From contig JAAFIN010000012.1 in NCBI GenBank assembly GCA_013297825.1, positions 1 through 40,868 of the forward strand: 40,868 nucleotides of DNA, in the 5' to 3' direction. A program made the translations under genes and the position numbers. Shown one piece after another: positions 5,297 through 29,344 of this stretch; positions within the stretch are counted from its first letter, which is position 1, and the number at the start of each line of letters is the position of its first letter. The DNA is from Cytophagales bacterium (GTDB lineage: Bacteria > Bacteroidota > Bacteroidia > Cytophagales > Microscillaceae). Under the pieces are notes generated by a model. The model worked only from the letters and a program-made list of their open reading frames with translations. It was not told the DNA's origin and did no database searches.

Positions 5297-6286
5297 TTAT
5301 TCATTAAACCATTTCCAAGTTACTTCTAAGCCTTTTTTGAGGTCAAAAGTAGGATTATAACCTAATAATTCTTTGATTTTAGAAATATCAGCAAGGCTAT
5401 TTTTTACATCACCTAAGCGTTCAGCTCTGTGATTTGGTTTAATGTCTTTATTTGCCAATTTGCACAATGTATCCACAATATCCAACAGCGAATTACTTTC
5501 GCCAACTGCTACATTATACACTTGATTGATTGCTTCTTTTTTTTCTATAAAACAAGCCAAAATATTCGCCTGAACTGCATTTGCAACAAACGTAAAATCT
5601 CGTGTATGCGTGCCATCACCGTTGATATTAGGCGAAATATTATTTTTGATTGCTTCCATAAATAATGGCATTACCGCAGCGTAAGCACCTTTTGGGCTTT
5701 GTCTTATGCCAAAAATATTAAAATATCTTAAACCAATAGTTTCCAATCCGTAAGTTTTGTAAAAAACATCTGCATACAATTCATTTACATATTTGGTAAC
5801 TGCATAAGGCGACAAAGGTTTTCCAATAACATCTTCTTGTTTGGGTAAAATTGGGCTATCGCCATACGTAGAAGAAGATGCTGCATAGATAAATCTTTTT
5901 ACTTTTTGGTCTTTGGAGGCAACCAACATATTAAGAAATCCTTGAACATTTACCTCATTGCTCAAAATAGGATTATCAATGCTACGAGGAACCGAGCCTA
6001 ATGCAGCTTCGTGCAGTACATAATCCACATTTTGACAAGCATTTTGGCAGGTGTCCAAATCACGAATATCACCTTCTATAAATTCAAAATTAGGAAAATG
6101 CACAAAAGCCTCAATATTTTCCCTAAAACCTGTCATCAAATTATCCAAAACTTTTACTTTTTTGGCTTGATGTGTCAATAAGTATTCTACCAAATGAGAA
6201 CCTATAAAACCTGCTCCGCCTGTTACCAAAAAAGTAAATTGACTTAGGTCTTGTGTGTGAAAAGGAGGAATATTTTTGTAAAACAT
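5297..6286 (-). CDS. NAD-dependent UDP-sugar 4-epimerase (WbpP/TviC-like)
   Basis: The 329-residue short-chain dehydrogenase-type epimerase has the Rossmann glycine motif GGAGFIGS at residues 23-30, the catalytic SSSTYG at 137-142 and YAVTK at 161-165. The stretch GLRYFNIFGIRQSPKGAYAAVMP resembles the WbpP/TviC group, which interconverts UDP-GlcNAc and UDP-GalNAc (or their uronic acids) for surface polysaccharide. Substrate choice is inferred from similarity remembered, not tested. It stands alone, without other polysaccharide genes nearby. The stop codon leads directly into ATTAGGA-type repeat sequence (5265-5297). Confidence 0.88.
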   Translation of the reverse strand: MFYKNIPPFHTQDLSQFTFLVTGGAGFIGSHLVEYLLTHQAKKVKVLDNLMTGFRENIEAFVHFPNFEFIEGDIRDLDTCQNACQNVDYVLHEAALGSVPRSIDNPILSNEVNVQGFLNMLVASKDQKVKRFIYAASSSTYGDSPILPKQEDVIGKPLSPYAVTKYVNELYADVFYKTYGLETIGLRYFNIFGIRQSPKGAYAAVMPLFMEAIKNNISPNINGDGTHTRDFTFVANAVQANILACFIEKKEAINQVYNVAVGESNSLLDIVDTLCKLANKDIKPNHRAERLGDVKNSLADISKIKELLGYNPTFDLKKGLEVTWKWFNE

Positions 6287-6384
6287 TTTTGAATTTTTTA
6301 AAGGATTTTATGATTATTTTTTATAAATATTATTTTTATATGTAAAAATAGGTAATGATTTACACATTGAGAAAAAAACTTTTT

Positions 6385-6415
6385 TAATGTTGAATGATAA
6401 ATGAAACAGCCAAAT
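6385..6415. repeat. Single ACAGCC-family unit
   Basis: AATGTTGAATGATAAATGAA followed by ACAGCCAAATAA matches the array at 4021-4220. It lies between the epimerase start and the 3' end of the WG-repeat gene. The rest of 6287-6507 holds an AGGATTT/AGGATTA-rich stretch and a short AACTTTTGAACCTTGAAC-type simple repeat (about 6470-6510). No gene was seen there. Confidence 0.7.
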
Positions 6416-6507
6416 AAGAGCAGGATTTTTAGGATTTTAAGATTGGCAGGATTAAATACAAATTATTTTTAAACTTTTGAACCTTGAACTTTTAAACCTT
6501 AAACTTT

Positions 6508-9243
6508 TTACTCGCACACAATCCTCAAATATTCTTCTTCTTTCAGTACATTTGACCAAATTTCTTTACCATTTTGGGCAAAATAAACGACTTGATAACG
6601 TTTTTTGTCTTTTGATTTGTGTTCTGCAAAAAAAACAGGGTGTTCCAAAGTACCAATGTTATTGATATGTTCGTAATCAGGCGGAATGATATTACCATTT
6701 TTTGCACTATAAACGCCAAAAAAACCATTCATTTCTATCTGCACAAATACATCATCAGCAGTGCGTGCCAAAAATTTTACTTTTTCAAAATCCATTTTAG
6801 GCAATTTTGTTTGTGATTTTTTATTAAAATGCACAAAATTCCATTTTCCTTTTTTGTCCAATGCAAGTGCAATACTATCTTTCCACGCAATAATTTCGGT
6901 ATATTCCAATGGAATTAAATTTGCCCCTTTGCTATCAACCACACCAAATAAATTGTTGCGTTTTGCAACAAACCAAAGAGGGCGTTTTTTTGGGGTAAAA
7001 TATTGCAAAGGTTCATCAAAATTAGGTTCAATCAAACACAAACCTTTTGCCCAAAGTCCAAATTTTCTTTGGTTGGTTAAAATATATTCGCCTTCATTCG
7101 CCTTTGTGATGCCATCATATTTGGGCATTAGTAAAAATTTACCCAAAGAATCAGCCAAACCAAATTTTCCATTTTGTTGGATTACAACCTCTTTTGGGCT
7201 TACAATATAGTAATTTTGGGCAGTTGGCGGTAATATTTTATTGCCTTCTGGCGAAAAAAGTCCTTTTTTATTGGTCGCATCTTGATACGAAATATACGAT
7301 TGCAAAGCAGTATAATCGCCTTTTTCTGCTTTCAGATTACGCAATGCAGTAACTTCTACCACTTTTTGCGGAAATTGAATATAAGATTTTTTAGCTTTTT
7401 GGTACATCAAATTTTCGCCTATTGCGTACAAGGTATCAAGATTTATTTCGTGATGAATTTTTGCCATTTTATCCAAAATCCCCCATTTATTGCCCATTTT
7501 TACACCCAAAAAATGCGGTGTAATGATAATGTTTTGATATTGTTGTTCATTCAAGGGCTTGATTTCGTGGAGATTATTATTTTTAATAAATTGGTAAATT
7601 ATCCAATTTTTATTTTTTTCTATGGAAAAAATGTTTTCTGATATTTGTAAAATATTATCAAAATCCGAAAAAATAATATTTCCTTCTTTGTCTAATAGTT
7701 TTACTTTATTTTCTTGAACTATTTTTATCCATTTGGTTTCATTGTCTATTTTTTCCCATTGGTTATAAACAGGTAAATTTTGCATTTTTTCCTCAAAATA
7801 ATGCCCAAGTGCATTATTTGCCAATATTTGACTTTCGCTATTGCTCGCCAAACTCACAAAATATTTGCCTACTGCTTCTATTTCTGTAAATTTTGGTTCA
7901 ACAATCACCATTCCGTTATAGGTTGCAATTCCCCACCTGCGATTTTTGCGAATTTTCAAAAATTTATCATTCAAAACCTCAATCAAGTCATATTTTATAG
8001 GCAAAATTTCTTTGCCTGATGTGTGATAAATGCCTTGTTCTGCATTTTTGGAAACACGCACAAGCCCTGTAACAAAAAAATCAATTTGGTCAAATTGTGG
8101 TGTAAGGATTGCCTTTCCAAAAGCATCTTGCAAACCCACTCGGTTATTTTTTTGGGTAATCAAATAAGGTAAAAATTGAGCATTACAAAGGTGTTTTTTG
8201 GGAATTTCTTCCAAAGATGGCGAAATGGTAGTTTTGCCATTTTCATTTACATAACCAAATAATTCACTGTCTAAAAATGGAATATATGCTATTTTATAAT
8301 TTTTTTCAAATTTTTCAAAATATTCTTTTTCAGGAAAATTAGGAAATTCATTAAAAAGTTGTTTCCAAGTATTTTTTTCGTGAGCGTGTGCAACCAACCA
8401 ACTATACGCAAGCGAAGTAATAAGTGCTTGTGGATATTTTTTCACAAAATTTTTATAAAAATCTTCGTTATTTTGCCAACTATCTGCCCAATAAAGCTGT
8501 TCTATGGCGTTATTTCTATAAGCATTTTTTGGATTTTGGTTCAAAAAACGCAAAATTTTTGATTTTGTATTGCTTTGCGTATCACGCACCCACACGAGGC
8601 TATCGCTTACTCGGTTTGCTTCTTTGTATTGTGGAGCGTTAGGATATTTTTGCATAAATTCCTGATAAATTTCCAGCGAATTTTGTTGGCGTGCATCTTT
8701 CCAAGAGATTTGATAAAATCGTGTTTGGGCTTCTTGTACTTGTGGAGCTTTTGGAAAATGCGTCAAAAAAGTTTGGTAAGCGGTGAGTGTATTGCTTTTT
8801 TCAGCCAAATCAAAGCCTTTTTTTTCAATATTTTCTTTGAGTTTTTTGGCAGTTTCAAGCGTAATTTTTTCGCTTACCCATTCTTTGAGAATTTTGGGTT
8901 GAGCTTTTGGGTAGGAATTTATGGATTTTTGCACAAAAAAATACGCAGAATCCATATTATACGCAGGATTTTTTTCTGCAAAATAATATTCTGCAAGTAC
9001 GTGAAAAGTACCAGCATTATAAAGTGTATCTTTTTCTAATTGTTTATCAATCTGTGTTTTTGCTTTCGCAAACTCGCCTTTTTGTATTTGTTTGAATGCA
9101 CTTGTAATGCGGTCAGCAAGTAGGGAATGATGAAAAAACAGAGAAAAAAAAAGGTTAAAAAATAGAAAACTAAAAAAAGAAATTTTTTGAATTTTTTTAT
9201 AAAAGGATTTAAGTGGTTTGGAATTTGTCATTGTTGGTGGCAT
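6508..9243 (-). CDS. WG-repeat protein with N-terminal TPR-like region, exported
   Basis: The 911-residue protein has an N-terminal hydrophobic segment (FFSFLFFNLFFSLFFHHSLL, about residues 23-42) that looks like a signal sequence. Tandem helical repeats follow at about 45-300 (patterns like YQTFLTHFPKAPQVQEA and YQEFMQKYPNAPQYKEA), resembling TPR. After that come WG (KWG) repeats to the end, for example GKWGILDKMAKI, GKFGLADSLGKF, NLFGVVDSKG and GFFGVYSAKNG. WG repeats are common in Bacteroidota surface proteins of unknown function, probably in binding. An ATG four codons downstream is an alternative start. A -7-like TATTTTTG lies 32 nt upstream. Confidence 0.85.
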   Translation of the reverse strand: MPPTMTNSKPLKSFYKKIQKISFFSFLFFNLFFSLFFHHSLLADRITSAFKQIQKGEFAKAKTQIDKQLEKDTLYNAGTFHVLAEYYFAEKNPAYNMDSAYFFVQKSINSYPKAQPKILKEWVSEKITLETAKKLKENIEKKGFDLAEKSNTLTAYQTFLTHFPKAPQVQEAQTRFYQISWKDARQQNSLEIYQEFMQKYPNAPQYKEANRVSDSLVWVRDTQSNTKSKILRFLNQNPKNAYRNNAIEQLYWADSWQNNEDFYKNFVKKYPQALITSLAYSWLVAHAHEKNTWKQLFNEFPNFPEKEYFEKFEKNYKIAYIPFLDSELFGYVNENGKTTISPSLEEIPKKHLCNAQFLPYLITQKNNRVGLQDAFGKAILTPQFDQIDFFVTGLVRVSKNAEQGIYHTSGKEILPIKYDLIEVLNDKFLKIRKNRRWGIATYNGMVIVEPKFTEIEAVGKYFVSLASNSESQILANNALGHYFEEKMQNLPVYNQWEKIDNETKWIKIVQENKVKLLDKEGNIIFSDFDNILQISENIFSIEKNKNWIIYQFIKNNNLHEIKPLNEQQYQNIIITPHFLGVKMGNKWGILDKMAKIHHEINLDTLYAIGENLMYQKAKKSYIQFPQKVVEVTALRNLKAEKGDYTALQSYISYQDATNKKGLFSPEGNKILPPTAQNYYIVSPKEVVIQQNGKFGLADSLGKFLLMPKYDGITKANEGEYILTNQRKFGLWAKGLCLIEPNFDEPLQYFTPKKRPLWFVAKRNNLFGVVDSKGANLIPLEYTEIIAWKDSIALALDKKGKWNFVHFNKKSQTKLPKMDFEKVKFLARTADDVFVQIEMNGFFGVYSAKNGNIIPPDYEHINNIGTLEHPVFFAEHKSKDKKRYQVVYFAQNGKEIWSNVLKEEEYLRIVCE

Positions 9244-9355: not shown

Positions 9356-10411
9356 TTAAGCTAAGGTAATTTGATGTTTTTTGTGTACTTCTTCTTTTGT
9401 TGAAAAAGATGTTACTTCACCACTAAAAGAATATTCGCCCAGCCAAGTTGCATTATATGAAAATACTTCAAATCCTCCTGATTCAAAATCCGCAGATAGA
9501 TATATTTTGTGGTTGCTTTCACCTGCTGAATAAATTTCTCGTATTTTTCCACTTTTTTGTGCGTTCAATTTTGATATATCTTTTTCAAAAGTATAGCCAT
9601 TTATTGTTGCAACTATTTTTGCCATTTTGCTTATAATGCTTATTTTTTCAGGTGCATTTTTTTTGATTTTTTCCCTGAAATCTTGCCAATTATCAACCGT
9701 AAAAAGGTCGCTTAATGCACGAAAAGGTAATAAATTATTTGGAAAATCCTTGTTTGGTTGCCACTTTTCCCAATCAAAATCTTTGTATTTTGAATTATTA
9801 TAAAATTCTGTTTTTATTTTTTTCCAAATTTCTTTATCTTCAATACACTTATACCAATCAATATTTATTTTTTTCCAAATTTCCCAATCTTTAAATCGTA
9901 TAAAAGGAATTTCACCATAAAAAATTTCATTAAGATAAGTTTTTTTGAAAAAATATAAATGTAAAAAGTCATAATCATTTGACATACTCAACAAAGCAAA
10001 ATTAGTTGTTTTGTTGTATAAAAAATATCGTTCTATAACTTCTGCAAGTGTGTTATCAGTTTGTTTAGTTAATTTTTCGGAAGGAAAATCAACTTGATAA
10101 TATGAAATATTACCATCATTTATTTTGTTTTCTGTCCAGTCAATCAAATGTTGCATTTTATTTTTTATATTTCTTATGATTGATTTGTCTTCTATACATT
10201 CCTCTACATATTGAACAACAAAATTATTTTTGAGTAATTCAATTATGTTTGAGTTTGATGTAAAAAATTTGATTTCATTTTCATATTTTTTTACAACTTT
10301 TGTTAAAAAAATATGAAAGTCATTCAAGGTTTTTTCAGTGTCATTTTCTAACTCTTTTGAAAAAGAAATATCATCAAAAAAGATATTAAATTCTTTGTTG
10401 TTTTTGTCCAT
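9356..10411 (-). CDS. Unknown protein, third gene of the DUF262/AAA operon
   Basis: This 351-residue protein is not recognised. The N-terminal half is helical and charged. The middle is Trp-rich, with a repeated WKKI pattern (DWEIWKKI, KEIWKKI, DWEKW). The last 60 residues are predicted beta-rich and contain YLSADFESGGFEVF (304-317) and LGEYSFSG (324-331). That C-terminus is faintly like the catalytic region of colicin E3-type RNases: Asp308 and Glu315 fall where the Asp and Glu of the colicin motif would be, but the His between them is absent. It starts 9 bp after the ATPase stop, so it is almost surely translated from the same transcript and should work with the two proteins upstream. No homology search was possible. 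Confidence 0.8.
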   Translation of the reverse strand: MDKNNKEFNIFFDDISFSKELENDTEKTLNDFHIFLTKVVKKYENEIKFFTSNSNIIELLKNNFVVQYVEECIEDKSIIRNIKNKMQHLIDWTENKINDGNISYYQVDFPSEKLTKQTDNTLAEVIERYFLYNKTTNFALLSMSNDYDFLHLYFFKKTYLNEIFYGEIPFIRFKDWEIWKKINIDWYKCIEDKEIWKKIKTEFYNNSKYKDFDWEKWQPNKDFPNNLLPFRALSDLFTVDNWQDFREKIKKNAPEKISIISKMAKIVATINGYTFEKDISKLNAQKSGKIREIYSAGESNHKIYLSADFESGGFEVFSYNATWLGEYSFSGEVTSFSTKEEVHKKHQITLA

Positions 10412-10420
10412 TTATATTTT

Positions 10421-11716
10421 TTATTTTACGCCTAAAATAATATCTAAATCATTCTCAGTTTGGTCAAAAAAACCTTCAATCCAATTCGTTATTTTTCCTT
10501 TTGGGCTTATTGGAATTTGGGTAAAATATTTTTCTTGTGAATTTTCATCTTCTGTTTTTGGGTCGTGAAAATAAAAAACATTTGCTTGTGTGTTTTCTAA
10601 AATGTTGTCAATAATAGCAATTCGCAAACCATTTAAAATATGCTCGCTGTGTGTTTCCACAAAAACCTGTACGCCACAACTTGCGACTTTTGCCAAAAAT
10701 TTTGTCAAACTATTTTGTGCTTTTGGGTGAAGGTGTGCCTCTGGGTTTTCTATTATCAATATTTCGCCTTTTTTGGCTATCAAGCCTGACACGATAATGG
10801 GTAACAAATACGAAAATCCAAAACCTACATTGGTTGGTCTGTATTGTGGTGTTCTATCAGAATTTGTATTAAAAAGAAAATAAATAATGTCTTTTTGGGA
10901 GGTATCATCAATATTAAATTTTACATTTCCAAATATTTCTTTGAGCCACTCCTCAGTTTGTTGCAAAAGTGTATTCGCATCTTGTCCCAAATATAATTTT
11001 TCATCTACATTTTGAGCTTTAAATTTTGAAAGTACGCTTGCAGTGTTTTCGCCTTTCGCACCAACAACAGGAAATAAATCTAAATCTTTTTTTACATAAT
11101 ATTTTTGAGAACCTATGCGGTCAGCTGATATATAGTGAACGTATAAGAAACTATTAGCCCCAATATTGTTACCAACATTCCAAAGATTATTATAAATAAT
11201 ATTTTGATTATTATTAACAGCTTCATCTTTTTGAGTAATTAAATTTACAGGTAATAAAAAAGCAAGGAATACATCTTTTATGCCTAATTTTTCCTCAGAT
11301 TCAAAAGCAGGGGTTTTTCCTTCAAATGTTTTATGTTCCGCATCTAAAAAAAAATCTGCATTCTCATTTTTAAATTTTAAATTCTGAATATCAAGCGTTG
11401 TACTTTCCAATTCACTTTTTAAATTATATTCTGCTTTCCCATTTTTAAATTCAAATGCCATTGTGATGTATTCATTTGTAGGTGCATCAATGTTTTTCAC
11501 ATCTTGAAAATCACCCAGATTCACACAACTACCATTCAAATAAATTTTTGGAGCAAGTTGGTTAAAATCAATGCTTTGCTTCATCAACAAAATGGATTGT
11601 AACAAAGATGATTTTCCTTTCCCATTTGTACCTGTAAGCAGGTTAAAATTAGCAAGTGGAAAAGTAGTTTTTTCTCTAAAAACCTTAAAATTTTGGAGTG
11701 TGATATTTTTTAGCAT
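10421..11716 (-). CDS. AAA family ATPase, DUF3696 type
   Basis: The 431-residue SMC/RecF-like ATPase has a Walker A GTNGKGKSS at residues 29-37. The Walker B region IIENPEAHLHP is at about 321-331, and the following ETHSEHILNGLR holds the switch His at 354-365. The C-terminal GFFDQTENDLDIIL (from about 415) is typical of DUF3696 proteins. Such ATPases often act as sensors or motors in anti-phage systems next to nucleases. It is the middle gene of a three-gene operon: 20 bp after the DUF262 gene and 9 bp before the unknown gene. No Toprim domain is present, so it is not a full-length OLD nuclease. Confidence 0.92.
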   Translation of the reverse strand: MLKNITLQNFKVFREKTTFPLANFNLLTGTNGKGKSSLLQSILLMKQSIDFNQLAPKIYLNGSCVNLGDFQDVKNIDAPTNEYITMAFEFKNGKAEYNLKSELESTTLDIQNLKFKNENADFFLDAEHKTFEGKTPAFESEEKLGIKDVFLAFLLPVNLITQKDEAVNNNQNIIYNNLWNVGNNIGANSFLYVHYISADRIGSQKYYVKKDLDLFPVVGAKGENTASVLSKFKAQNVDEKLYLGQDANTLLQQTEEWLKEIFGNVKFNIDDTSQKDIIYFLFNTNSDRTPQYRPTNVGFGFSYLLPIIVSGLIAKKGEILIIENPEAHLHPKAQNSLTKFLAKVASCGVQVFVETHSEHILNGLRIAIIDNILENTQANVFYFHDPKTEDENSQEKYFTQIPISPKGKITNWIEGFFDQTENDLDIILGVK

Positions 11717-11736
11717 TGTGATTTTTGTGTAATTTT

Positions 11737-12903
11737 TTATATTTTTCCTAATATTTCTTCTGCAAGCGTAAAACGGTCAATTACATTGCGTTTGGAAGCT
11801 GTGGAGGTTTTTGTAGCATTGCGATAGATTTCATTTTTGAGTAAAATATTCATATTTTCAATGATTTTTTCTTTGTTTGTTTTCAAAAAATCATCTGAAT
11901 ATTTAGAGAAAAAATAAGCAATAGATTCCATCAGGGAGGTATTGATAAAACCACGATTAAGTTTGTTGTCTTTGTCCAAAATAGGAAACCTAAAATTTTC
12001 TTTTCCAAAAAACTCAAGCGTTAAATCCATTACTCTTACAAAATCCTCTTTGAGTGCCAAAAGTTCTTCTGGTTGCATTTGGTTTATTTTTCGCATTGTA
12101 TTTCCTAAAAAATCGTCCAAATCACCTTTATAATCTTTTTCATAATCAAAAATTTTAAACGAAAGATAACGCAATACAATTTCCCTGTCTTTCATTCTTT
12201 TATCAGAAACACCATTGTCTATAGCTTTTTTAAAAACTTCCATTTCAGAAAGTTCTTTGAGTAATTTGGTGGAATTACCTAAAAAAATACAATTCCTTAC
12301 CTCTTGTTGATTAAGTGGAGTGCCTCCTGTATTTATTCTATCAAATAATTCATAAATTACTTGCGTAGAAACTGAAGGTTTTAATACATAAAGCATCAAA
12401 TTTTTATCTTCTATTTTTGCCCTTATCGCACTTGGTAATTCTGAAAATTTTTTATTATTATAATCTGGTAATTGCTTTAAATCTTTTAATGGAAATTCAT
12501 TATTAACAAATTCGTGTAATGCAGTAGTACGTTGCAACCCATCAATAATAGTATAATCTCCATTTCTTTGTTGGTTGACATAAAAAGGAGGAAGCGGAAA
12601 CCCTAAAATAATAGATTCAATAAAACGTACTTTTTGATGAAGTTTCCAAACCAAATTGCGTTGATAATCAGGGTCAATTACAAGCCTTTTTTGGTCATAA
12701 AAACGCATATATTGATAAATAGAAAATTTATCTTCTCTTATATCCACATCAGCAATTTCAGGGTTATAAGGGAATTTTTTAGGTTGGTCAGAACCTGAAT
12801 CTTCTTCTGTATTATCACTATCATTGACAATTATTTTTTCACTTTTAATTTTGTCTTTATCTTCTGTGGTATTATTTTCAAATAATTCTGGATTATTCAT
12901 CAT
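11737..12903 (-). CDS. DUF262 (GmrSD N-domain-like) protein
   Basis: The 388-residue protein opens with an acidic, low-complexity N-terminus (about 1-55). A DUF262 domain follows, with PDYQRNLVW at 78-86, the hallmark IIDGLQRTTAL at 119-129, and RINTGGTPLNQQEVRN. DUF262 is a ParB/Srx-like nucleotide-binding fold, best known as the N-terminal part of the type IV restriction enzyme GmrSD. There is no HNH (DUF1524) domain in the C-terminal part, so catalysis here may be limited to NTP hydrolysis. It is the first gene of the operon. Two consecutive ATGs (12903 and 12900) are possible starts. A promoter-like pair lies just upstream. Confidence 0.9.
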   Translation of the reverse strand: MMNNPELFENNTTEDKDKIKSEKIIVNDSDNTEEDSGSDQPKKFPYNPEIADVDIREDKFSIYQYMRFYDQKRLVIDPDYQRNLVWKLHQKVRFIESIILGFPLPPFYVNQQRNGDYTIIDGLQRTTALHEFVNNEFPLKDLKQLPDYNNKKFSELPSAIRAKIEDKNLMLYVLKPSVSTQVIYELFDRINTGGTPLNQQEVRNCIFLGNSTKLLKELSEMEVFKKAIDNGVSDKRMKDREIVLRYLSFKIFDYEKDYKGDLDDFLGNTMRKINQMQPEELLALKEDFVRVMDLTLEFFGKENFRFPILDKDNKLNRGFINTSLMESIAYFFSKYSDDFLKTNKEKIIENMNILLKNEIYRNATKTSTASKRNVIDRFTLAEEILGKI

Positions 12904-22676: not shown

Positions 22677-23285
22677 CTAAAACCATTTTTGGATTGTATT
22701 TTTAAATTTTTCAAAATTTAGGTCAATGCAACCTTTAAAACTTGCTTTTTGTGCTATATTTTTGTAAATAGCTGATGAACGAGGTATTTGTTTTTCTTTC
22801 AAAGCCTCCTCAAATGCTTCTTTTGGGCGAGGTGGTTTTATGTCATTTTGATTTTTAAAACCTTTTTGAATAAGCCAATTATCAAGTGTTGGCATATCTT
22901 CCCATTCTGTTTCCTGTGCAAGATGTGGAGAATTTACCCAAATCCAATTTTCTATTTCAGGCTCAATGATGATAACTGCATTTCTATTTTGCCAACCATT
23001 TATATCCAATTCATTTTCCATTTTTTGCACAAGTTGTGGCTGACTTGTTTGGTCGCCTGAACCTTCATAATCAAACAAAACAATCGCATAATCATAATTT
23101 GTAATAAATGGACGCAAAAAATCACTACTTCCTGCACGCACACCTGCATCACGCAAAGGGTGGATTTTCATATCAAAAGTAAATTCTTTGGTGGATAATA
23201 TTTTGGGCAAACGAGGCAAAAGTCCATCTAATAAAAACTGCGTATTTTTGTCTGCTACCAATATGATTAAATCTTTTTTTTGCAT
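22677..23285 (-). CDS. Toprim-like effector protein paired with AAA ATPase (MAD4/DUF4276-like)
   Basis: The product has 202 residues from the ATG at 23285. That start places the first strand DLIILVADKN at residues 5-14, as expected for the family, and leaves a 16-bp gap to the ATPase gene; an upstream start at 23324 would overlap it. Further motifs are YAIVLFDYEGSG at 66-77, IIEPEIENWIW at 106-116 and a late RSSAIYKNI. The acidic residues at strand ends resemble Toprim-like families (DUF4276, RloB, DUF4435) that sit beside OLD/PARIS-type ATPases. I also recall strong likeness to MAD4 of the methylation-associated defence system. Function as a nuclease effector is inferred; the classical DxD is only partly present. 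Confidence 0.82.
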   Translation of the reverse strand: MQKKDLIILVADKNTQFLLDGLLPRLPKILSTKEFTFDMKIHPLRDAGVRAGSSDFLRPFITNYDYAIVLFDYEGSGDQTSQPQLVQKMENELDINGWQNRNAVIIIEPEIENWIWVNSPHLAQETEWEDMPTLDNWLIQKGFKNQNDIKPPRPKEAFEEALKEKQIPRSSAIYKNIAQKASFKGCIDLNFEKFKNTIQKWF

Positions 23286-23301
23286 ATTTTTTTTAAAGAA
23301 A

Positions 23302-24558
23302 TTAGTCCAAAATACCACTTGCAAATAAAATACTTAAATTGGTTTCGTGTTGCCAATTTTTGAGATTTGGGTGTTCATCTCCTTGCACAATATCAGCAAT
23401 GCCATCTTTCGTTTTTGCAAAACAAAGTATATTTTTTAATTCTGCAATACTTAGTACCGCAGGCGAATGTGAAGCAACTAATATTTGGGCGTGATACAAA
23501 GAAGAAAGTGATTGAAAAATGGTTTCAATCGCTTTTGGGTGAATACCATTTTCAGGTTCTTCTATCAAATAAATTCCTTTAAAATCAGGCAAATACGCAA
23601 TAATCGTAAGTGCCAATAATCGCAATGTTCCATCAGAAATTATCCAACTTGGCACTTCTGCACCATTTCCATAAATAATTTTGAGGTATTTGTGTTTATT
23701 ATCAGGATTTTCAAAAATTTTTATGGTTTGAATATCAGGCAAAGCAGTTTGGATATGATTTATCCAATTTTCAAATTTTTTTGGATAATTTTTTTTTAAA
23801 TCATCTATTACCCAAGGAAGATTACTGCCATCAGAACGAAATTGTTTGCCTTGATTTGGCGGACTTGTTTCACGAATTTTTAAACTATTGAGCATAAAAA
23901 GCTGTACACCTGTTTCCAAATATTCTTTTAGCCAAATAGATGCAGGAAATTTTTCTTCATCAGCAGGAAGATTTGCTAATGCGGATTTTCGGTGTCCAAG
24001 TTTGAATGATAAATTCCAACCTTTTGAAATTTCAGAAAAATAAGCATCATTTTTATTTTGTGCTTTGCTTATTATAGATTTGAATATTTGTTTTGGATAT
24101 TTTTTATTGTAAATCGAATTTCCCTCTTGAAAATGTGGAAAAAGATTATGCGTTTTTATTTCCTTTTCAATAAGTGAATTGTCCAATAATAAAACCCTTT
24201 CACCTAAAATTCCAATGTCTTTTTGTGTTTCGTGTATTCCTATTTGTAATTCATAACGAATAGTTTTGAGAGATTTATTTTCTTCTAATTTTTCAATAAT
24301 ATGATTGGGCAACAAAAATTCAAGGGCAATTTCTATATTTCCGCCTTGACCTTTCCAAGTAAGGTCATCAAAATTAGTTACACGATTAGAAACTGCTTTT
24401 TCTACATTATCATTTACAATATCACGCACAAAACTTATCACATCTAAAAAAGTCGTTTTTCCTGTGGCATTTGCACCCACAAGTATATGAAAACCTTTTA
24501 AATCTTGTGAAATGTATCGTAAAAGTTTGTAATTTTTTACTTCTATTTTTGTAATCAT
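23302..24558 (-). CDS. AAA family ATPase of a two-gene defence-like cassette
   Basis: The 418-residue RecF/OLD-type ATPase (AAA_15/AAA_21) has Walker A GANATGKTT at residues 28-36 and a signature SDGTLRLLAL at 308-317. Walker B is IYLIEEPENGIHP at 329-341, and ASHSP at 362-366 carries the switch His. The C-terminus lacks a fused Toprim nuclease; the adjacent gene supplies a Toprim-like protein instead, the split arrangement of PARIS-, RloAB- and MAD3/MAD4-like pairs. It is not closely similar in sequence to the DUF3696 ATPase of the other operon. Perfect 60-bp direct repeats bracket the pair. Confidence 0.9.
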   Translation of the reverse strand: MITKIEVKNYKLLRYISQDLKGFHILVGANATGKTTFLDVISFVRDIVNDNVEKAVSNRVTNFDDLTWKGQGGNIEIALEFLLPNHIIEKLEENKSLKTIRYELQIGIHETQKDIGILGERVLLLDNSLIEKEIKTHNLFPHFQEGNSIYNKKYPKQIFKSIISKAQNKNDAYFSEISKGWNLSFKLGHRKSALANLPADEEKFPASIWLKEYLETGVQLFMLNSLKIRETSPPNQGKQFRSDGSNLPWVIDDLKKNYPKKFENWINHIQTALPDIQTIKIFENPDNKHKYLKIIYGNGAEVPSWIISDGTLRLLALTIIAYLPDFKGIYLIEEPENGIHPKAIETIFQSLSSLYHAQILVASHSPAVLSIAELKNILCFAKTKDGIADIVQGDEHPNLKNWQHETNLSILFASGILD

Positions 24559-28127: not shown

Positions 28128-28439
28128 TTAAGAAGGTAGTTTTTTTTGAATATCAAGCACATAATCAATGCTTACATCAAAAATTTCAGCAATTTCTTCA
28201 ATAGAAAGTTTGCCTCTTAAAAGTGCTTTTGTTATGCCTTTATTTTTTGTTTTAATTTCGCCTTTAATTTCTCCCCTGATTTCACCTTTAATTTCGCCTT
28301 CAATGCGAGCAGTTTCTGTAACATTGTGAATATCACGATAGGTATTAAGACTTTCTTGGTAAAGTGCCATTTGTTCTGTGGTAAATTTTGAGATTTTTGC
28401 AATTTTAAGAAAGAAGATTTTTTTGAATATCAAGCACAT
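28128..28439 (-). pseudogene. Tandem duplicate of the 3' end of the Rpn-type gene
   Basis: From IAKISKF onward, this frame repeats the last ~85 residues of the gene just upstream (EMALYQ/QMALYQESLNTYRDI, HNVTETARIEGEIKGE, LSIEEIAEIFDVSI, YVLDIQK). It has an extra eight residues from GEIK/GEIR repeats (24 bp). Its own ATG reads the old 3' end in another frame (MCLIFKKIFFL), so it lacks the nuclease core. The copy offset is about 253 bp. It is probably a non-functional relic or a decoy tail; alternatively it is a small expressed C-terminal protein. Confidence 0.75.
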
Positions 28440-29292
28440 AATTAATGCTTACATCAAAAATTTCAGCAATTTCTTCAATAGAAAGCCTGCCTTGTTCAAG
28501 AGCTTTTACTATACCTTTATTTTTTGTTTTAATTTCACCTTTAATTTCCCCTTCAATGCGAGCAGTTTCTGTAACATTGTGAATGTCACGATAAGTATTA
28601 AGACTTTCTTGGTAAAGTGCCATTTCTTGTTGGTTAAATTTTGAGATTTTTGCAATTTCAAATGCTTTTAAAAAAATTTTATTGTCAAACATTTTAGGAA
28701 TTTCCTTCAATGTAGGTAAATGCTTCAAAAAATAAAGCCATTTATCTGAGTTCGTTTCCAATTCGTTGATTTTCTTGGTGAAATTTGGCATTTCCAAAAA
28801 AATCATTCTTAATTTTTCATAAAACAAAGATTTATCTTCTATGTCCAGAAGCATAATATCGTGTTTTATTTTTTGCGTAAATTTTTCATCAAACCTAAAA
28901 TCCATTACTGCAATTAAAAAAACACTTGGTAATTTAAAATCCCAAACAAAATTTTCTTTTTTGTTGTCTTTTTGGGCTTGTTCTTGAATGACAGAAGATG
29001 TGTAATATAAAGCTCTATCCTTGAAATAAATTTGCTTTGCTTTTTGCATTTCAACGATAAAATTATCGCCTTTTTCATTTTCGCAAAAAATATCAAAAAC
29101 AGCTTTTCTGTCAGTTTCTCTTTTGCCAAGATGTTCATTTTTGAGAAATTTAACATTACTTATTTTGACCTCATTGCCTAAAAGTGCATTTAGGAAATCA
29201 ATCAATAAATCTTTATTGTCTTCTTCTCCAAAAAACTTTTTAAATCCAAAATCTGTATATGGATTCATAAAAACCTCTAAATCTTCTGCCAT
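28405..29292 (-). CDS. Rpn-family recombination-promoting nuclease / PD-(D/E)XK transposase-like protein
   Basis: The product has 295 residues from the ATG at 29292, chosen because the upstream GTG at 29313 overlaps the -7 element. The N-terminal core PYTDFGFKKFFGEEDNKDLLIDFLNALL, then DRKAVFDIFCENEKGDNFIVEMQKAKQ, is the PD-(D/E)XK signature (D...ExQ) of the Rpn/transposase-31 group. A following RALYYTSSVIQEQ helix is also typical. The C-terminus has GEIK repeats and a helix-turn-helix-like LSIEEIAEIFDVSINYVLDIQK. Family members are mobile-element-associated DNA nucleases. A good promoter lies directly upstream, and the 3' end is duplicated downstream. Confidence 0.87.
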   Translation of the reverse strand: MAEDLEVFMNPYTDFGFKKFFGEEDNKDLLIDFLNALLGNEVKISNVKFLKNEHLGKRETDRKAVFDIFCENEKGDNFIVEMQKAKQIYFKDRALYYTSSVIQEQAQKDNKKENFVWDFKLPSVFLIAVMDFRFDEKFTQKIKHDIMLLDIEDKSLFYEKLRMIFLEMPNFTKKINELETNSDKWLYFLKHLPTLKEIPKMFDNKIFLKAFEIAKISKFNQQEMALYQESLNTYRDIHNVTETARIEGEIKGEIKTKNKGIVKALEQGRLSIEEIAEIFDVSINYVLDIQKNLLS

Positions 29293-29312
29293 TTTTTTTG
29301 TGTTTGTTTTCA

Positions 29313-29344
29313 CAAAATTACGTTTTTTTTGATTTTTTTACAAA
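29313..29344 (-). promoter_or_regulatory. Bacteroidota-type promoter of the Rpn-type gene
   Basis: TTTG (29344-29341) and TAATTTTG (29320-29313) on the minus strand are 20 nt apart, matching the -33/-7 consensus. The leader would be about 15 nt long, which supports the ATG at 29292. Confidence 0.55.

Follow-up and report, generated by a model that had tools for sequence, protein, structure and literature searches.

The question raised by this locus is whether three closely packed genes in the genome of a Cytophagales bacterium form an undescribed defence system, as the first-pass annotation had proposed, and what the third of their products might do. Throughout, the window is the whole stretch of DNA that was analysed, 40,868 nucleotides long. 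Its three open reading frames lie on the minus strand as annotated, are separated by 20 and 9 bp according to their coordinates, and form one operon (Table 1).

Table 1. Features of the three-gene operon in the window.
Feature	Position	Strand	Description
NsnA	11737..12903	-	388 aa; first operon gene; DUF262/GmrSD_N (ParB/Srx-like NTPase fold), without HNH
NsnB	10421..11716	-	431 aa; ABC/OLD-type ATPase with C-terminal DUF3696
NsnC	9356..10411	-	351 aa; two parts, an N-terminal region (~1-250) and a putative C-terminal effector tip
NsnC C-terminal tip	9359..9634	-	residues 260-351; predicted colicin-E3-like ribonuclease fold, common to Rhs toxin tips

PADLOC models name all three proteins, as NsnA (6.4e-113), NsnB (2.6e-116) and NsnC (6.1e-16), names that we take to be those of the Menshen system genes. 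By these profile matches the trio is a Menshen (NsnABC) anti-phage system. The proposal of a defence system was thus correct, while the proposal that the system is undescribed was not, as it is of a kind already known. The window operon shares with Menshen (Millman et al. 2022) its gene content and order: a DUF262 protein without HNH, a DUF3696 ATPase and an NsnC in third place, in a tight A-B-C arrangement that is kept across genomes. It differs in the N-terminus of NsnC, which is divergent and has no direct PADLOC match, and in the tip, which is an atypical E3-like domain. The passages of PMC10952713 that report Millman 2022 describe Menshen as resisting phage and as depending on its DUF262 gene.

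The domain content of the first two proteins agrees with this assignment. The sole Pfam match of NsnA is GmrSD_N/DUF262 (PF03235, 3.4e-27), and the Pfam search found no DUF1524/HNH domain in it, just as had been noted from the sequence. It keeps the conserved motifs DYQR, IIDGLQR and FDRINTGG. NsnB, which had rightly been described as an ATPase of the defence type, matches AAA_15 (2.6e-29), AAA_21 and DUF3696 (PF12476, 1.9e-10), and its Walker A (GTNGKGKSS), Walker B (ILIIENPEAHLHP) and VETHSEH motifs are intact; no Toprim match was found in the Pfam search. Several related systems were considered and set aside. NsnA has its DUF262 domain in common with the type IV enzymes GmrSD, BrxU and SspE, but the DUF1524 HNH nuclease of type IV restriction is missing. 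It also matches PD-T4-2_A of the PD-T4-2 system (DUF262 + HEPN) at 1.5e-45, far below its match to the NsnA model, and its partner is a DUF3696 ATPase rather than a HEPN protein. Septu is ruled out by missing partner domains.

The genes around the operon are mostly house-keeping (ATP synthase, LepA and glutamate synthase), and a strong defence-island setting was not found in the window. This would suit a system of house-keeping or restriction that has DUF262 and AAA domains but no relation to Menshen. We regard that explanation as very improbable, given that NsnA and NsnB match PADLOC models over their full length, that NsnC matches as well and that the gene order is exactly that of Menshen. 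Elsewhere such operons do have defence genes for company: among 103 neighbours of trio loci PADLOC recognised defence proteins, including those of type I restriction-modification, which lie close to some of the trios.

The trio is conserved as a unit. A survey with the NsnA profile at 1e-40 was positive in 40 of 395 Bacteroidota genomes, and, together with loci that a scan of contigs with the tip brought up, it yielded 23 distinct NsnA-NsnB loci. A third ORF follows NsnB on the same strand in every one of them (23/23), within ~80 bp except at locus L041, where the ORF is interrupted; the third gene is therefore conserved with the other two. The remaining DUF262 hits of the survey have no adjoining NsnB and were treated as other DUF262 systems. 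The tip led to seven further loci. Six encode NsnA as well as NsnB; the exception (L118) has NsnB only and begins at a contig edge, and at another (L116) the NsnA match is weak. Four more trios were found on plasmids, from Bernardetia, Photobacterium, Gluconobacter and Crinalium, so that the plasmids bearing the trio include those of Cyanobacteria and Proteobacteria. Because the same order with an adjoining third gene recurs in all 23 loci, in the loci found by the tip and on plasmids, the arrangement is not due to chance.

On the Bernardetia plasmid NsnA is 40% and NsnB 53% identical to the window proteins (NsnB over its C-terminal half), whereas NsnC has no detectable similarity to that of the window. 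The window NsnC protein had no match among plasmids, phages and viral contigs, and a search of the 395 genomes with PADLOC PDLC03890 returned, besides the window, a single marginal hit (3.6e-4) to a long frame that contains internal stops. At L041, a Desulfococcaceae trio with the same tip, the NsnC reading frame (7324-8285, plus strand) is interrupted. The genome from which the window comes holds two additional trios, on contigs C304 (L059) and C357 (L050), the window copy being on C24. It thus has three complete NsnABC operons; E3-like tips occur in two of them, and the tip of the third is of another type (PDLC03909).

What, then, is NsnC? It had been called unrecognised, and this stands as far as Pfam (no match) and NCBIfam (no meaningful match) are concerned, but PADLOC does recognise its C-terminal ~90 residues: the NsnC match spans residues 252-343 only. 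The N-terminus can be tied to Menshen through relatives. Over most of its length the window NsnC has 35-37% identity to the NsnC of L040 and L002, whose N-terminus in turn matches the PADLOC NsnC model PDLC03889 at 1.5e-12. AlphaFold gives no confident model of the N-terminal ~250 residues (pLDDT about 50-65). Comparisons of the N-termini of the window clade with other NsnC N-termini by hhalign were not significant, and for this reason we do not claim common ancestry of all NsnC N-termini.

Pairwise and profile searches show that NsnC is modular, with tips exchanged on a conserved N-terminus. The NsnC of L043 has residues 1-165 in common with L045, L047 and L052 and its tail in common with L057 and L058. 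A profile of this N-terminus (the L043/L045 type) finds L118 (2.4e-11) and L041 (4.3e-8), both of which have E3-like tails, while the NsnC of L045 (5338-6195, minus strand) ends in a YoeB toxin (PF06769, 5.4e-16). A single N-terminal type therefore bears YoeB (L045), E3-like (L118, L041) or other tips (L043, L047/L052). These tails are toxins, in keeping with the earlier suggestion that the third protein is the likely effector. A further type of tip is perhaps present at L062 (5630-6349, minus strand), where the NsnC has no Pfam match and shows, by eye, an HxD motif of the phospholipase-D kind (HHDRYVVID). In a Cytophagales genome an RNA 2'-phosphotransferase-like (Tpt1/KptA) gene lies directly after NsnC (L042, 8256-8786, plus strand).

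The same three-gene layout seems to be known under another name. The ptuXYZ system consists of a DUF262 protein without HNH, a PtuA-like ATPase and a third protein of two domains, of which the C-terminal one is an RNase toxin, YoeB (RelE/ParE superfamily survey, mBio 2025, PMC11980606). PADLOC identifies L045 as a Menshen locus, and its NsnC ends in just such a YoeB domain. This suggests that ptuXYZ is the YoeB-tipped form of Menshen and that the two names refer to the same kind of system. The window copy itself is not the YoeB-tipped form, its tip being E3-like; moreover, the third protein of ptuXYZ has a PIN-like N-terminus, whereas the corresponding model in the window is of the low pLDDT given above.

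The E3-like assignment of the tip was reached as follows. The last ~90 residues of the window NsnC form a discrete tip, which Rhs toxins also carry at their ends: residues 260-350 match other NsnC tails and the Rhs toxin tail of L115 (5.6e-15). Just 2 bp after this Rhs tail with its NsnC-type tip (5564-6975, minus strand) comes a gene of 184 aa. It is probably the cognate immunity gene, and its product could serve as an inhibitor for Menshen tips. PDB sequence searches with profiles of the tip or of the full NsnC gave chance matches only, so the link to colicin E3 needed an Rhs intermediate. This is a 1096-aa Rhs protein (L120), which is reached by the NsnC-tip profile. Pfam assigns its tail to PF09000 'Cytotoxic' (1.9e-16), the tail finds colicin E3 in the PDB (1.4e-9), and relatives of this protein on plasmids are annotated as 'colicin E3/pyocin S6 family cytotoxin'. 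In reciprocal HMM searches of the collected ORFs and shuffled controls, the tip profile found E3 domains at E 1.6e-5 and the reverse search gave 4.9e-6 to 2.9e-5, with the best shuffled control at E 9. An hhalign comparison agreed (91%, E 1e-6).

Predicted structures point the same way. In a template-free AlphaFold model of the full NsnC the pLDDT is 64 overall and ~90 in the tip, and the top three Foldseek matches among 350,542 PDB chains are colicin E3. With the tip alone (pLDDT 89.5) the top two PDB matches are again colicin E3 (TM 0.54), and rank 4 is the Enterobacter cloacae CdiA toxin, which has a known E3-like fold. The Foldseek E-values are weak (0.1-0.6) and not significant by themselves, but the ranking is clear, and the case for the E3 fold rests on this ranking together with the sequence evidence. 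On these grounds we assign the colicin-E3 ribonuclease fold to the tip, a claim about fold that does not extend to activity as an E3 ribonuclease. Pfam gives no PF09000 match for the window tip, and that of the NsnC of L111 is sub-threshold (0.043). PADLOC already has NsnC models with this tip family (PDLC03890, 03905 and 03917). The E3-like assignment is the new part of our analysis; the Menshen domain survey of Li et al. 2025 (NAR gkaf357) may already report such a tip.

The tip thus appears to share with colicin E3, pyocin S6 and Tox-ColE3 (PF09000) the fold and a core D...E motif with a preceding Arg, and has homologues on Rhs proteins. Unlike these toxins, NsnC has no secretion part and no adjoining immunity gene, and it has extra N-terminal helices. 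The active site differs as well. The signature of E3-type toxins is R, Dxx[HK], E, H (Zhang 2012, PMC3482391), and colicin E3 needs D510, H513 and E517 (PMC4905994). In profile alignments the window tip keeps R291, D308, E315 and H346, and in its last segment a His takes the place of R545 of colicin E3, but it has Ser311 for the usual His or Lys, at the equivalent of the essential H513, and Trp323 for the usual His. The full signature is therefore absent from the window tip, whereas most other NsnC tips have it: Dxx[HK] and the second His are present in L110, L111, L114, L117 and L118. The tips of L040 and L041 have no His or Lys at 311 and keep the second His.

Because of Ser311 and Trp323 the activity of the window copy is doubtful; its catalysis may be changed or weak, and its power is uncertain. 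One possible but less likely reading is that this is Menshen but with a non-catalytic tip in the window copy, a degenerate module for ribosome binding, structure or sensing, so that killing would fall to NsnA and NsnB or to a sister copy. Besides the replacements at 311 and 323, this is favoured by the second full NsnABC in the same genome (L059), whose E3-like tip keeps DxxH (DTQHIDFE). It sits less well with the retention of D308, E315 and R291, with H346, which is near-invariant across the tips, with the intact NsnC reading frame in the window, and with the relatives, among which Lys, Ser or Thr at 311 is common, including the Rhs tip of L115 (the annotated E3-family cytotoxin L122 has Lys). 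In a bolder reading, likewise less likely than not, NsnC would be a cassette-type intracellular polymorphic toxin. Its ribosome-directed tips (E3-like or YoeB) would be swapped with those of Rhs proteins and be controlled by NsnA and NsnB rather than by an immunity protein, and the E3 centre of the window copy would be non-canonical, one in which H346 may stand in for the two missing histidines.

The RNase activity of YoeB is ribosome-dependent, and both this toxin and colicin E3 act at the ribosomal A site. A ribosome-directed tip on NsnC therefore fits, as YoeB is found on the same N-terminal type. Since no immunity gene is present, the toxin would have to be restrained by its partners. Given that NsnC tails are toxins, that two recognised kinds act at the A site and that an immunity gene is lacking, the most economical reading is that NsnA and NsnB are a sensor and an ATP-driven gate and that NsnC is a ribosome-directed effector. 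What the analysis itself establishes is the identity of the system, its conserved gene order, the modularity of NsnC and the homology and fold of the tip. Beyond this we infer that NsnA (DUF262, NTP-binding) and NsnB (ABC/OLD-type ATPase) would sense infection and keep NsnC inactive until a phage trigger, upon which the ATP cycle of NsnB would expose or deliver the tip. The tip would then attack the ribosome, most likely the decoding site of its 16S rRNA, so that translation would stop and the infected cell would release no phage. Taken as a whole, an NsnABC operon in the window that bears a colicin-E3-like NsnC tip and attacks the ribosome upon infection seems to us probable.

The roles could also be reversed, with NsnC as the phage sensor, its variable tail recognising the phage, and the nuclease activity in NsnA or NsnB. 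Variable domains are typical of sensors, a nuclease function has been proposed for the ParB/Srx-like fold of NsnA (PMC11980606), and a component of the OLD-nuclease type has been suggested for Menshen (PMC10952713). We nevertheless think this improbable, as the tails are recognisable toxins (YoeB and E3-type) in common with Rhs toxins, and NsnB has no Toprim match and NsnA no HNH. If NsnC is the ribosome-directed effector, an 'unknown' defence effector becomes testable and Menshen would halt infected cells at the ribosome. The shared tips further suggest that warfare toxins and phage-defence effectors draw on exchangeable tips in common.

Other genes of possible relevance to defence were seen along the way. 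In the window, 10 kb from the operon, an ATPase (AAA_21/AAA_15, HEC-01A/mad3-like) and a 215-aa protein with a match to mad4 (2.9e-9) make up a second defence-like pair of genes (22677-24558, minus strand), and a PD-(D/E)XK transposase-family gene (PF12784, 4e-66; 28405-29313, minus strand) is a sign of mobile DNA. Elsewhere in the same genome, a candidate defence pair lies directly upstream of the second trio on C304 (L059, 4429-6462): an ATPase with a 312-aa protein that is Toprim-like by eye. On contig C299 (L088, 6711-9850) a DUF262 gene without NsnB is followed by a 246-aa protein and one that is AlbA-like by eye, possibly a PD-T4-2-like system.
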